Positions 1 to 41,073 of a stretch of 64,000 nucleotides of DNA are shown piece after piece. The position numbers and the translations under genes were made by a program. Position 1 is the first letter of the stretch. Each line of letters begins with the position of its first letter. Under the pieces are notes generated by a model. That model was not told the origin of the DNA. It was given only the letters and a program-made list of their open reading frames with translations, and did not search any database. The DNA is from Cytobacillus kochii (lineage in GTDB: Bacteria > Bacillota > Bacilli > Bacillales > Cytobacillaceae). The stretch covers positions 1 through 64,000 of the forward strand of contig NZ_JAIVAM010000002.1 of assembly GCF_020171845.1 (NCBI RefSeq). Direction: 5' to 3'.

Positions 1-1020
1 TTAGAGAGATAAGTAGGGTAACCAGTGAAATCGCTACTAATCAAAGAAGAATTAGAGAGATAAGTAGGGTAACCAGTGAAATCGCTACTAATCAAAGAAG
101 AATTAGAGAGATAAGTAGGGTAACCAGTGAAATCGCTACTAATCAAAGAAGAATTAGAGAGATAAGTAGGGTAATCAGTGAAATCGCTACTAATCAAAGA
201 AGAATTAGAGAGATAAGTAGGGCAACCAGTGAAATCGCTACTAATCAAAGAAGAATTAGAGAGATAAGTAGTGTAACCAGTGAAATCGCTACTAATCAAA
301 GAAGAATTATTGAGATAAGTAGGGCAACCAGTGAAATCGCTACTAATCAAAGAAGAATTAGAGAGATAAGTAGGGTAATCAGTGAAATCGCTACTAATAA
401 AAGAAGAATTATTGAGATAAGTAGGGCAACCAGTGGAATCACTACTAATCAAAGAAGAATTAGAGAGATAAGTAGGGTAACCAGTGAAATCGCTACTAAT
501 CAAAGAAGAATTATTGAGATAAGTAGGGTAATCAGTGAAATCGCTACTAATAAAAGAAGAATTATTGAGATAAGTAGGGTAACCAGTGAAATCGCTACTA
601 ATCAAAGAAGAATTAGTGAGAAAAGTAGGGTAATCAGTGAAATCGCTACTAATCAAAGAAGAATTAGTGAGAAAAGTAGGGTAATCAGTGAAATCGCTAC
701 TAATAAAAGAAGAATTAGAGAGATAAGTAGGGCAACCAGTGAAATCACTACTAATAAAAGAAGAATTAGAGAGATAAGTAGGGCAACCAGTGAAATCGCT
801 ACTAATCAAAGAAGAATTATTGAGATAAGTAGGGCAACCAGTGAAATCGCTACTAATCAAAGAAGAATTATTGAGATAAGTAGGGCAACCAGTGAAATCG
901 CTACTAATAAAAGAAGAATTAGAGAGATAAGTAGGGTAATCAGTGAAATCGCTACTAATCAAAGAAGAATTTGTCACATAAGCAGGACAAGCAGTAAAGT
1001 CGCTTCTAATAAAAGACCAC
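1..1020. repeat. 51-bp tandem repeat array (19 close copies plus 1 degenerate)
   Basis: Copies begin at 1, 52, 103 and every 51 bases to 919, with a diverged twentieth at 970-1020. The array touches the window edge and may extend left. About nine of 51 positions vary between copies, for example GTA/GCA, ACC/ATC, CAA/AAA and AGA/ATT/AGT. There are no spacers and no dyad per unit, so it is not CRISPR. Because 51 is a multiple of three, one frame on each strand stays open: RDISRV-like REISRVTSEIATNQRRI units forward, SSLISSDFTGYPTYLSN units reverse. Confidence 0.97.
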
Positions 1021-1028
1021 CCTGCCAT
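1..1028 (-). CDS. possible repeat protein on the minus strand (partial, doubtful)
   Basis: Reading leftwards from an ATG at 1028, the minus strand is open through all twenty repeat copies to the window edge, giving 17-residue units of the type SSLISSDFTGYPTYLSN rich in Ser, Tyr, Thr and Pro. The first unit (MAGWSFIRSDFTACPAYVTN) comes from the diverged copy and stays in frame. No convincing ribosome binding site precedes the ATG. The plus strand has a matching open frame from position 3 to a TGA at 1029-1031 without any usual start codon. Openness follows automatically once one unit is open, so coding is unproven. Nearly all differences between copies change the residue in both frames, which argues against ordinary purifying selection. 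Confidence 0.25.
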   Translation of the reverse strand, partial: MAGWSFIRSDFTACPAYVTNSSLISSDFTDYPTYLSNSSFISSDFTGCPTYLNNSSLISSDFTGCPTYLNNSSLISSDFTGCPTYLSNSSFISSDFTGCPTYLSNSSFISSDFTDYPTFLTNSSLISSDFTDYPTFLTNSSLISSDFTGYPTYLNNSSFISSDFTDYPTYLNNSSLISSDFTGYPTYLSNSSLISSDSTGCPTYLNNSSFISSDFTDYPTYLSNSSLISSDFTGCPTYLNNSSLISSDFTGYTTYLSNSSLISSDFTGCPTYLSNSSLISSDFTDYPTYLSNSSLISSDFTGYPTYLSNSSLISSDFTGYPTYLSNSSLISSDFTGYPTYLS

Positions 1029-1128
1029 TGAATTCGCAAAATGAGTAGCGCTAAAGCTAGTTCCGTGAATTTTGATTAGTATTAGCGTTAGTCAATCTCG
1101 ATTATGATAGATAGAAAGGAGACTTCTC

Positions 1129-1452
1129 TTGCCAACTTATAACAAACTAGTGCGTGATAGAATTCCCGACATCATCCAAAAGTCAGGGAAATCATACAAT
1201 ACAAGAATACTATCTCACTCCGAATATACAATGGCACTTAAAGATAAACTTCAAGAAGAGGTGAATGAATATCTAGAGGCAGGGCACTTGAAGGATCAAG
1301 GTGAAGAGTTAGCTGATATTCTCGAAGTCGTTTATGCATTAGCAGAAGCCCAACAAATGTCAACGGATGAATTAGATGAGATTAGAAGGACAAAAGCTCA
1401 ACAAAGAGGAAGGTTCGAGGGTAGGGTGCTTTTGATAGATGTGCAAGAATAA
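1129..1452 (+). CDS. MazG-like nucleoside triphosphate pyrophosphohydrolase
   Basis: A 107-residue protein starting with TTG, with AAAGGAGA placed 7 bases before it. It begins with the sequence PTYNKLVRDRIPDII, characteristic of phosphoribosyl-ATP-pyrophosphohydrolase-like/MazG-like house-cleaning proteins. The metal-binding acidic motif is visible as EEVNE near residues 44-48 and EELAD further on. Members of this all-alpha family hydrolyse (d)NTPs or related nucleotides to the monophosphate and pyrophosphate. It stands alone, followed about 275 bases later by a strong hairpin with a T run. The exact substrate cannot be read from the sequence. Confidence 0.85.
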   Translation: MPTYNKLVRDRIPDIIQKSGKSYNTRILSHSEYTMALKDKLQEEVNEYLEAGHLKDQGEELADILEVVYALAEAQQMSTDELDEIRRTKAQQRGRFEGRVLLIDVQE

Positions 1453-31741: not shown

Positions 31742-33001
31742 GTGTTAGTTAGTAGAGAGAAAAAGAAATATTGTCGTAAATGTAATAAAAGATACTACTC
31801 CCATTGTGATAAATGTAATATATGTTGTCCTGGGGCAATCATCATCGGTATAACTGGTATAACTGGTGTAACAGGTCCCACAGGTCCAGTTGGGATTGGG
31901 GTGACTGGTATGACTGGTGTAACGGGTCCTCCCGGTCCAGTGGGAATTGGGGTGACCGGTATGACTGGTGTAACGGGTGCAACCGGTCCAGTTGGAATAG
32001 GAGTCACCGGTTTAACGGGATCAACCGGTCCAACAGGCCCCACTGGTCCGACAGGAATAGGAGTCACCGGTCCAACTGGACCATCAGGAGGACCACCAGG
32101 GCCAACAGGAGTCACAGGTCCCACTGGTCCATTCGGTGGTCCAACAGGCCCTACTGGTCCAACCGGTCCAGCAGGAGGACCTCCGGGACCAACAGGAGCA
32201 ACCGGACCGATTGGTCCCACAGGACAAACGGGTCCGACCGGTCCGACAGGAATAGGAATTACAGGCCCCACAGGACCATCAGGCGGCCCTGCTGGTCCAA
32301 CAGGAGTAACGGGTCCGACCGGTCCAGCAGGAGGCCCAACCGGTCCGACTGGCCCAACCGGTCCAGCAGGCGGTCCACCAGGTCCGACAGGAGCAACTGG
32401 TCCCATAGGTCCAACGGGTCCGACTGGTCCAACTGGTCCAACTGGCCCCACAGGAATAGGTATACAAGGTCCGACGGGGGCCACCGGTCCAAGTGGTGGA
32501 GGTGGTGGAAACTTCCTTCAAACATTAACAATGGGTAGTATCAATGCAGAATTACCATTTAACGCAGGTGGAGGGAATTTTCAGGCAGTAGGTGCATTAG
32601 TATTTAATCAAACAGAGCAAACGGTATCAGAACTTTCGTGTTACATTGTTCAAGATGGCAACGTAACAGGTGATTTTCAAATGGCTATTTTAAGTCCTGT
32701 AGGCAATAATAACGCAACAGTAATTGCGGTCACACCTCTTGTTAATACAATCACACCAGGAGTATTTAACTTACCACTTGTTTCACCAGTCACATTACTA
32801 GCAGAAGAACAATATTATTTAGCTGTATATAATCAAGTAAATGGATGTAATATTGGTGCAGAAACGGCCGGTTATGCTAGTACACAAGATGCCCCTTCAA
32901 TTAATTTTAGAGCACAAAATTTACAAGGGTTTTTTATTGGTCAAAACATCAATACAAGTGATGTTAGTCTACAACTATCACCATGGGTTGCAGCTCAATA
33001 A
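31742..33001 (+). CDS. collagen-like exosporium-type glycoprotein
   Basis: A 419-residue protein starting with GTG and GGGAGG 7 bases before it. Residues 1-35 are basic and cysteine-rich ([20 protein letters not shown]), then about 215 residues of Gly-X-Y, mostly GPT/GVT/GIG, then a 160-residue globular C-terminal domain ([20 protein letters not shown] to [10 protein letters not shown]), probably the trimerisation head as in BclA-like spore filaments. Threonines in the Y position are likely glycosylated. The usual BclA exosporium-targeting leader is missing and the cysteine cluster takes its place. A 65-residue unit of the collagen region is duplicated. A terminator follows. Confidence 0.88.
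32054..32443 (+). repeat. 195-bp tandem duplication inside the collagen region
   Basis: The segment starting at 32054 (GGAATAGGAGTCACC) recurs in diverged form from 32249 (GGAATAGGAATTACA), exactly 195 bases or 65 codons later, preserving [31 protein letters not shown] and so on. Confidence 0.75.
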
Positions 33002-40886: not shown

Positions 40887-41073
40887 AGGGATGGCGACTG
40901 TCATTCCTTTTTTTATGAATTCCTTACAAATAACAAAATATGCGATGCTTTTTTAACAAGTCTTTTAAATAACTACCGAGTTTAACCATTTAATTATATA
41001 AAAAATTATATAATTTGCAATTTATATATAAAATTATATAATAAATACAATTATTAAAAATGAGGTACTAGAT

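Follow-up and report, generated by a model that had tools for sequence, protein, structure and literature searches.

The stretch of DNA analysed here (the window) comprises 64,000 nucleotides of Cytobacillus kochii and corresponds to positions 1-64000 of contig C2 (NZ_JAIVAM010000002.1), window position 1 being base 1 of the contig. Its left edge is occupied by a tandem array, which Tandem Repeats Finder (TRF) reports at positions 1-1016 with a period of 51 bp (19.9 copies, 93% matches, 0% indels), confirming an array described there in an earlier sequence-only reading. A 34-base core pattern (up to three mismatches allowed) matches 19 times in this array and never in 100 shuffles, and the dyad AGTAGGG-n13-CGCTACT is exact in both half-sites in 16 of the 19 units. 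The extent given by that reading stands for the 51-bp copies at 1-1016 but not for the array as a whole, which is cut at the contig end and continues onto contig C1, where the last 146 bases match the window array and constitute its other end. Because the contig break interrupts the array, the copy number of 19.9 is a minimum and the array is longer than the window shows.

The array sits between two co-directional genes, a ComK-family gene on C1 (Pfam E=5e-27) and a PRA-PH/MazG-like gene on C2 (Table 1). In the close relative G015 these two genes adjoin, 186 bp apart, and TRF finds no array between them. A search with the window array returns no DNA match in any of 60 other genomes and none in plasmids. 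Elsewhere in the window, a 419-aa open frame at 31742-33001 (+) encodes collagen-like GPTGPTG repeats; TRF reports a 51-bp period inside this frame (31853-31998, 2.9 copies) that is unrelated to the intergenic arrays. An AT-rich short repeat of period 28 (2.4 copies) lies at 40994-41060.

Table 1. Features of the window array and its right-hand neighbour (window coordinates)
Feature	Position	Strand	Remarks
Class-1 51-bp array	1..1016	+ (purine-rich strand)	19.9 copies in window; left end cut by contig boundary
Dyad core, first unit	12..38		AGTAGGG 12-18, 13-bp spacer 19-31, CGCTACT 32-38; recurs every 51 bp
Purine-rich 24-bp stretch, first dyad core to next	39..62	+	Middle is the locus-specific linker
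Degenerate last unit(s), right array edge	970..1030	+	
Open sense frame, 17-residue periodicity	3..1031	+	Not taken as gene
Open antisense frame, 342 aa	3..1028	-	Not taken as gene
PRA-PH/MazG-like pyrophosphohydrolase gene, right-hand neighbour	1129..1452	+	Co-directional with array

The window array belongs to a family of at least 31 arrays in this genome, 30 of them located beyond the window in a sampled tenth of the genome. Searching the genome with the window array itself yields 12 match pieces, its two-block motif with one mismatch allowed gives 178 matches against 8 for a reversed control, and a query built from units of two classes finds 73 pieces, with all pieces on one contig sharing one orientation. 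In the 22 regions fetched, 27 of the 28 non-overlapping arrays with at least 3.5 copies and a period of at least 30 have a period of 51 or a multiple of it, and the remaining one, at L047:14871-15246, is a 60-bp tandem repeat of 6.3 copies; the working set of 31 adds the window array and shorter arrays. Two sequence classes account for most of the working set: class 1 (TCGCGACTAA / GATAAGTAGGGCAAA) for 13 of 31 arrays and class 2 (GAATTGCGCG / ATACGCGCAAAAG) for 12 of 31. The regions were picked for class-1 or class-2 matches, and the other 6 of 31 arrays, with different sequences and TRF periods of 50-51, surfaced in the flanks of these matches. One class-1 array (C11:146539-147195; L046:2540-3196) has class-2-like units on both edges in about the same 51-bp register, as judged by eye, which suggests that one class can take the place of another within a single array.

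Two familiar kinds of repetitive element do not describe this family. A CRISPR array has constant repeats with differing spacers, and here the linkers are homogenised within each array. A mobile element is likewise not indicated, as 12 array-free sites inspected by eye in G015 show no clear target duplication and some of them hold a degenerate unit.

The sequence-only reading knew of no described element with this unit, but Table 1 of Subirana and Messeguer (2021; PMC8161180) prints the unit class for Bacillus kochii. In about 30% of the Bacillus species that they examined, these authors find tandem repeats of 51-53 nt whose length is constant but whose sequence varies and is species-specific. 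Each repeat contains short signature sequences, often accompanied by their reverse, and the authors propose, without a test, a nucleoid protein or a small RNA. The arrays reported here share with these repeats the unit length, the occurrence of several families of one length per genome, the species-specific sequence, the non-coding character, the short signals often paired with their reverse in one repeat and the partial conservation between strains, and they likewise comprise at least four head-to-tail copies. By eye, the unit also matches B. kochii family 92_54_4 of that study, which when reverse-complemented has GATAAGTAGGGCAAAAGTGAGAATCGCGACTAATAAAAG in common with the class-1 array at C7:172750. 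The array at C5:177520 is similar to family 52_51_7, and families 79_52_5 of B. oceanisediminis and 71_52_7 of B. alkalitelluris carry a GTCCGAA/TTCGGAC class that is considered below. The kind of array is therefore already in print. The text of PMC8161180 does not contain replication polarity, a fixed dyad spacing, half-site constraint, the rarity of spacing indels relative to flanks, the exchange of classes between sister species at orthologous loci or the gap context, and a search of the open-licence literature brought up no account of what such arrays do or of their polarity; the new elements here are the polarity, the constrained dyad, its spacing, the class replacement at fixed loci and the gap preference. 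The tandem repeats of Borgs differ, being described in the excerpts of PMC9879509 as perfect repeats of archaeal extrachromosomal elements located both within and between genes.

One stop-free frame per strand runs through the window array, as the sequence-only reading had noted, and its account of the variable codons is also accurate: over 18 units, none of nine alternative codons is synonymous in the sense frame and one of nine is synonymous in the antisense frame. Random single changes are synonymous 21-23% of the time, which puts the chance of zero in nine near 0.12, so the absence of synonymous variation is real yet no evidence of diversification. Of the two alternatives offered by that reading, non-coding DNA kept homogeneous within the locus is supported and a repeat protein under diversification is not. 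Summed over 40 arrays (31 from this genome, 8 from G015 and 1 from G020), polymorphism in the best frame is flat across the three codon positions (67.9/77.2/74.4 in the sense and 77.8/69.8/71.9 in the antisense direction). Off-period steps of 50, 52 or 53 bp are present in 12 of the 31 arrays of this genome, which are the frame-breaking indels in homologous arrays that the reading had named as evidence against coding, and in other genera the related arrays are mostly built on a period of 52. On the pyrimidine-rich strand the unit has a frame free of stops in 34 of the 40 arrays, and on the purine-rich strand in 17, and the open frames are attributed to this strand composition.

The antisense frame of the window array matches Pfam Pentapeptide at 8.3e-10 with the whole protein above cut-off and no stretch passing alone, and the sense frame gives Rad50-like matches (5e-8, two stretches) that fall well short of the curated thresholds, as repetitive charged sequence would lead one to expect. 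A 17-residue repeat protein on one strand, which would account for both frames being open through 1-1016 and for a unit length divisible by three, is thus exceedingly improbable; neither a kept reading frame nor variation concentrated at third positions was found, and coding is rejected for the array family.

Each unit contains, in most classes, two inverted 7-bp arms at a preferred distance. Among 38 spacers evaluated with 7-bp arms, a spacer of 13 (equivalently 24) scores best in class 1 (z 7.1, 13 arrays), in class 2 (z 12.8, 12 arrays) and in the mixed rest (z 3.1, 8 arrays), these z values being overstated because loci of one class share descent. Examples are AGTCGCG-n13-CGCGACT and TTGCGCG-n13-CGCGCAA, together with GTGTGGG-n13-CCCACAC in class P, which favours spacers of 9-13. 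No clear dyad emerges in class A, found in G015 (best z 2.3), so a clear inverted repeat is not a property of every class, and for 9 of the 13 class-1 consensuses, taken singly, the top-scoring inverted repeat has p >0.05.

The half-sites vary 2-4 times less than the remainder of the unit in most classes. Within-locus variation in columns shared between loci, compared with other columns, is 0.035 vs 0.137 in class 1, 0.061 vs 0.137 in class 2, 0.101 vs 0.224 in class A and 0.085 vs 0.155 in class P, and the 14 half-site columns alone also vary less (0.042 vs 0.104 in class 1 and 0.053 vs 0.109 in class 2); as units within one array are not independent, these figures are to be read as counts and not as probabilities. 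Spacing is similarly stable. In the arrays of this genome, 18 off-period steps stand beside 2157 substitutions between neighbouring units (0.008), compared with 126 gaps per 677 mismatches (0.186) when non-coding flanks are aligned with G015, a 20-fold contrast that is an upper estimate because TRF favours regular arrays and misses compensating indels. Measured from centre to centre, the half-sites are spaced 20+31 bp in classes 1 and 2 and 18+34 bp in the 52-bp class. Since these distances differ between classes, it is the unit period alone that is in helical phase.

Related arrays occur in other genera. The class GTCCGAA-n11-TTCGGAC is present in 26 of 299 genomes of the order, spread over 14 of 117 genera, with up to 181 dyads per genome (0 or 1 for the control), arranged in arrays of 51-52 bp. 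In all 17 of these arrays with at least four units the arms vary least (arms 0.034, spacer 0.121, linker 0.122), a result somewhat favoured by the loci having been found through intact arms, though TRF then cut the arrays; 6 of 130 steps are off period. In genus g28, six genomes (G121, G151, G179, G230, G279 and G322) carry 54-181 GTCCGAA dyads and G256 carries none, and comparing G256 with its six congeners should help to find a binding protein. One member of the six, G151, which belongs to a different genus from the window's genome, has 19 arrays in its sampled regions (L137-L156) with a period of 51-52 whatever the class, among periods of 50-54 covered. The array period may be a species trait (51-52 in G151, 51 in the genome of the window). 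Samples of ten 20-kb regions each contain one 52-bp array of 4.3 copies in G001 and one 52-bp repeat of 2.5 copies in G018; these samples, partly masked in two regions, also hold repeats of periods 39, 42 and 63. One 52-bp array has no match in plasmids or phages. Searching named genomes with the class-2 dyad pattern gives 6 stretches from unrelated phyla, each with a single match, which are taken as chance.

The most detailed comparison is with G015, in which the flanks of 25 of the 31 arrays are located, with a flank DNA identity of 77-98%; the proteins around one locus are 95-99% identical, apart from one truncated pair. G015 has a 51-bp array at 6 of the 25 mapped loci and at one further locus found via its neighbour. 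The sequence class is replaced at most of these positions: class 1 here corresponds to class A in G015 at C7:172750, C5:135120 and C11:200729, class 2 to class A at C5:335885 and to class P at C14:55529, and another class to class P at C7:252577, while class P is retained at C5:80084. At C7:172750 the arrays are 65-67% identical and their flanks 93-96%. At this position (L041, L054) both the genome of the window and G015 have a 51-bp array, flanked by a DegV-family gene on one side and the gene of a response regulator (receiver and LuxR-type domains) on the other. TRF finds no array at the remaining mapped loci, and inspection of 12 array-free sites shows a degenerate unit at some of them (for example at L096:10253-10313 and L091:9648-9699) and unrelated sequence at others. 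Given that the half-site differs between species at fixed loci and that linkers are locus-specific, a change of recognition in trans would fit better than copying between loci.

The arrays have a constant orientation relative to replication. The purine-rich strand is the strand of positive GC skew (taken over up to 10 kb on each side) in all 31 arrays, for which the chance is 5e-10, or 1e-4 even under a gene-like bias of 75%, and the class-1 and class-2 motifs are co-oriented on the purine-rich strand in 25 of 25 arrays. An independent polarity map was obtained by placing array flanks on the complete relative G001. All seven placements longer than 200 bp (L046b, L041a, L039, L037b, L051, L050 and L045; 71-81% identity) have the leading orientation; among five weaker placements (70-76%, 86-218 bp), L042a and L052 agree, L035a and L049 disagree and L035b is near the terminus. 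The arrays L044 and L049 oppose both neighbouring genes and yet follow the GC skew. In G015 the arrays agree with the skew at 7 of 7 loci, at one of them with a skew of only -0.002. In G151, 15 of 19 arrays agree (p 0.01) and several are near purine-neutral, although neutral composition alone does not account for at least one of the disagreements, at 2.51 Mb. Mean purine content in leading orientation is 0.71 in arrays vs 0.52 in other gaps, so ordinary replication bias does not account for the purine content of the arrays.

The gaps that hold arrays also differ from other gaps. Among 27 arrays with called neighbours, taken as crude open frames of at least 100 aa, convergent and tandem gaps hold 13 each and divergent gaps 1, compared with 21, 74 and 44 of 139 other gaps of at least 100 bp, giving a convergent excess (13/27 vs 21/139, p 3.6e-4) and a divergent deficit (1/27 vs 44/139, p 1.7e-3). 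The arrays lie mostly in promoter-free gaps and are aligned with the replication fork. CIRCE-like and other dyad operators have an arm-spacer-arm geometry of similar size to that of the array dyads, but each of these operators is a lone site at a promoter and not part of an array in a promoter-free gap.

The reading preferred here, with a probability of roughly one half, is that the array is a non-coding stack of helically phased sites for a putative DNA-binding protein. Each 51-bp unit would provide one dyad of two 7-bp half-sites and a purine-rich linker, and because the unit is close to five helical turns, successive dyads would all be exposed on one side of the helix, along which a putative dimeric sequence-specific protein could bind side by side and build a nucleoprotein patch. 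Slippage or unequal recombination would homogenise the copies within a locus, selection would keep the half-sites and the spacing, and the recognised half-site would turn over between species. The sequence itself shows a period fixed over unrelated classes, dyads in most classes, low half-site polymorphism and few spacing indels, and these four features speak for a structure at the level of DNA that a protein recognises; it likewise shows the polarity, the gap context, the turnover at fixed loci and the lack of a coding signature. The existence of the protein and its attachment to the arrays, the way in which copies are homogenised and a part played in the nucleoid or in anchoring are what we infer. 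Several specificities with one period in one genome mean that one protein would be insufficient, which counts against the binding-site reading, as do the purine-rich polar linkers, which DNA binding alone does not explain. The lack of a clear dyad in class A, the p values above 0.05 for most single class-1 consensuses and the restriction of helical phase to the unit period also weigh against it. The absence of arrays at most loci of the close relative G015 speaks against an essential role.

The complete polarity with GC skew, the high purine content and the preference for convergent over divergent gaps would all suit a one-way transcription barrier, in which head-on or antisense transcripts become Rho targets, co-directional transcripts pass and convergent neighbours are insulated. 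In the sections of PMC13323073 that concern it, Rho-dependent termination in B. subtilis acts on pyrimidine-rich antisense RNA, and an excess of C over G together with T-richness are the reported features of Rho targets. Most arrays share this strand composition, and on one strand only. Compared with 4000 random 600-nt genomic fragments, the antisense strand falls in the joint top 1% (C-over-G, maximal T) in 25 of 28 arrays of at least 300 bp, the window array included, and the sense strand in 0 of 28, by a C/T measure that is a proxy and not the score of PMC13323073. The genome encodes rho. Against these points, a Rho barrier requires neither the 51-bp period, the dyad nor the rarity of indels, and neither periodicity nor dyads are involved in the termination as presented in those sections; G256 has rho but no GTCCGAA dyads, and polarity in G151 is weaker, with several near-neutral arrays. 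Such a barrier is unlikely as the full explanation, but it is a serious rival, or a second function beside the binding sites.

A neutral or selfish minisatellite, in which slippage and unequal crossing-over amplify any short sequence in a tolerant gap without function, is rather unlikely. It would agree with the placement in promoter-free gaps and with fast gain and loss, as seen in the few G015 loci that retain an array and in the degenerate units or unrelated sequence at others, but it does not predict one period for unrelated classes, lower variation in half-sites, rare spacing indels or complete polarity. Transcription of the repeats as hairpin RNAs or protein sponges, which follows a proposal of Subirana and Messeguer, is very unlikely. 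Dyads can form stems, and B. coagulans arrays are reported in RNA-seq data in the relevant passages of PMC8161180 and PMC8625621. The arms, however, bear no G-U wobble or compensatory signature: mismatched arm pairs are G-T in 42 cases vs A-C in 53, and 29 vs 55, with no G-T excess, and double changes are few (13 and 2), which argues that the dyad is a DNA site rather than an RNA stem. Class-1 arms also retain non-pairing positions (AGTAGGG with CGCGACT). A structured RNA family is not supported, with neither a match to a curated Rfam family within the window nor covariation.

Since they were published in 2020-2021, the constant-length Bacillus repeats have stood as an enigma, and the polarity, the constrained dyad, its spacing and the class replacement turn 'function unknown' into testable predictions about binding and about Rho barriers. 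A wider and quite speculative extension of the binding-site reading is that some Bacillus relatives possess a replication-oriented, chromosome-wide satellite system in which arrays and a putative DNA-binding partner co-evolve and the arrays additionally serve as one-way Rho barriers that stop head-on transcription. If this is true, dozens of phased dyad arrays at long-lived loci, with their recognition replaced between sister species, would represent a centromere-like turnover in bacteria.
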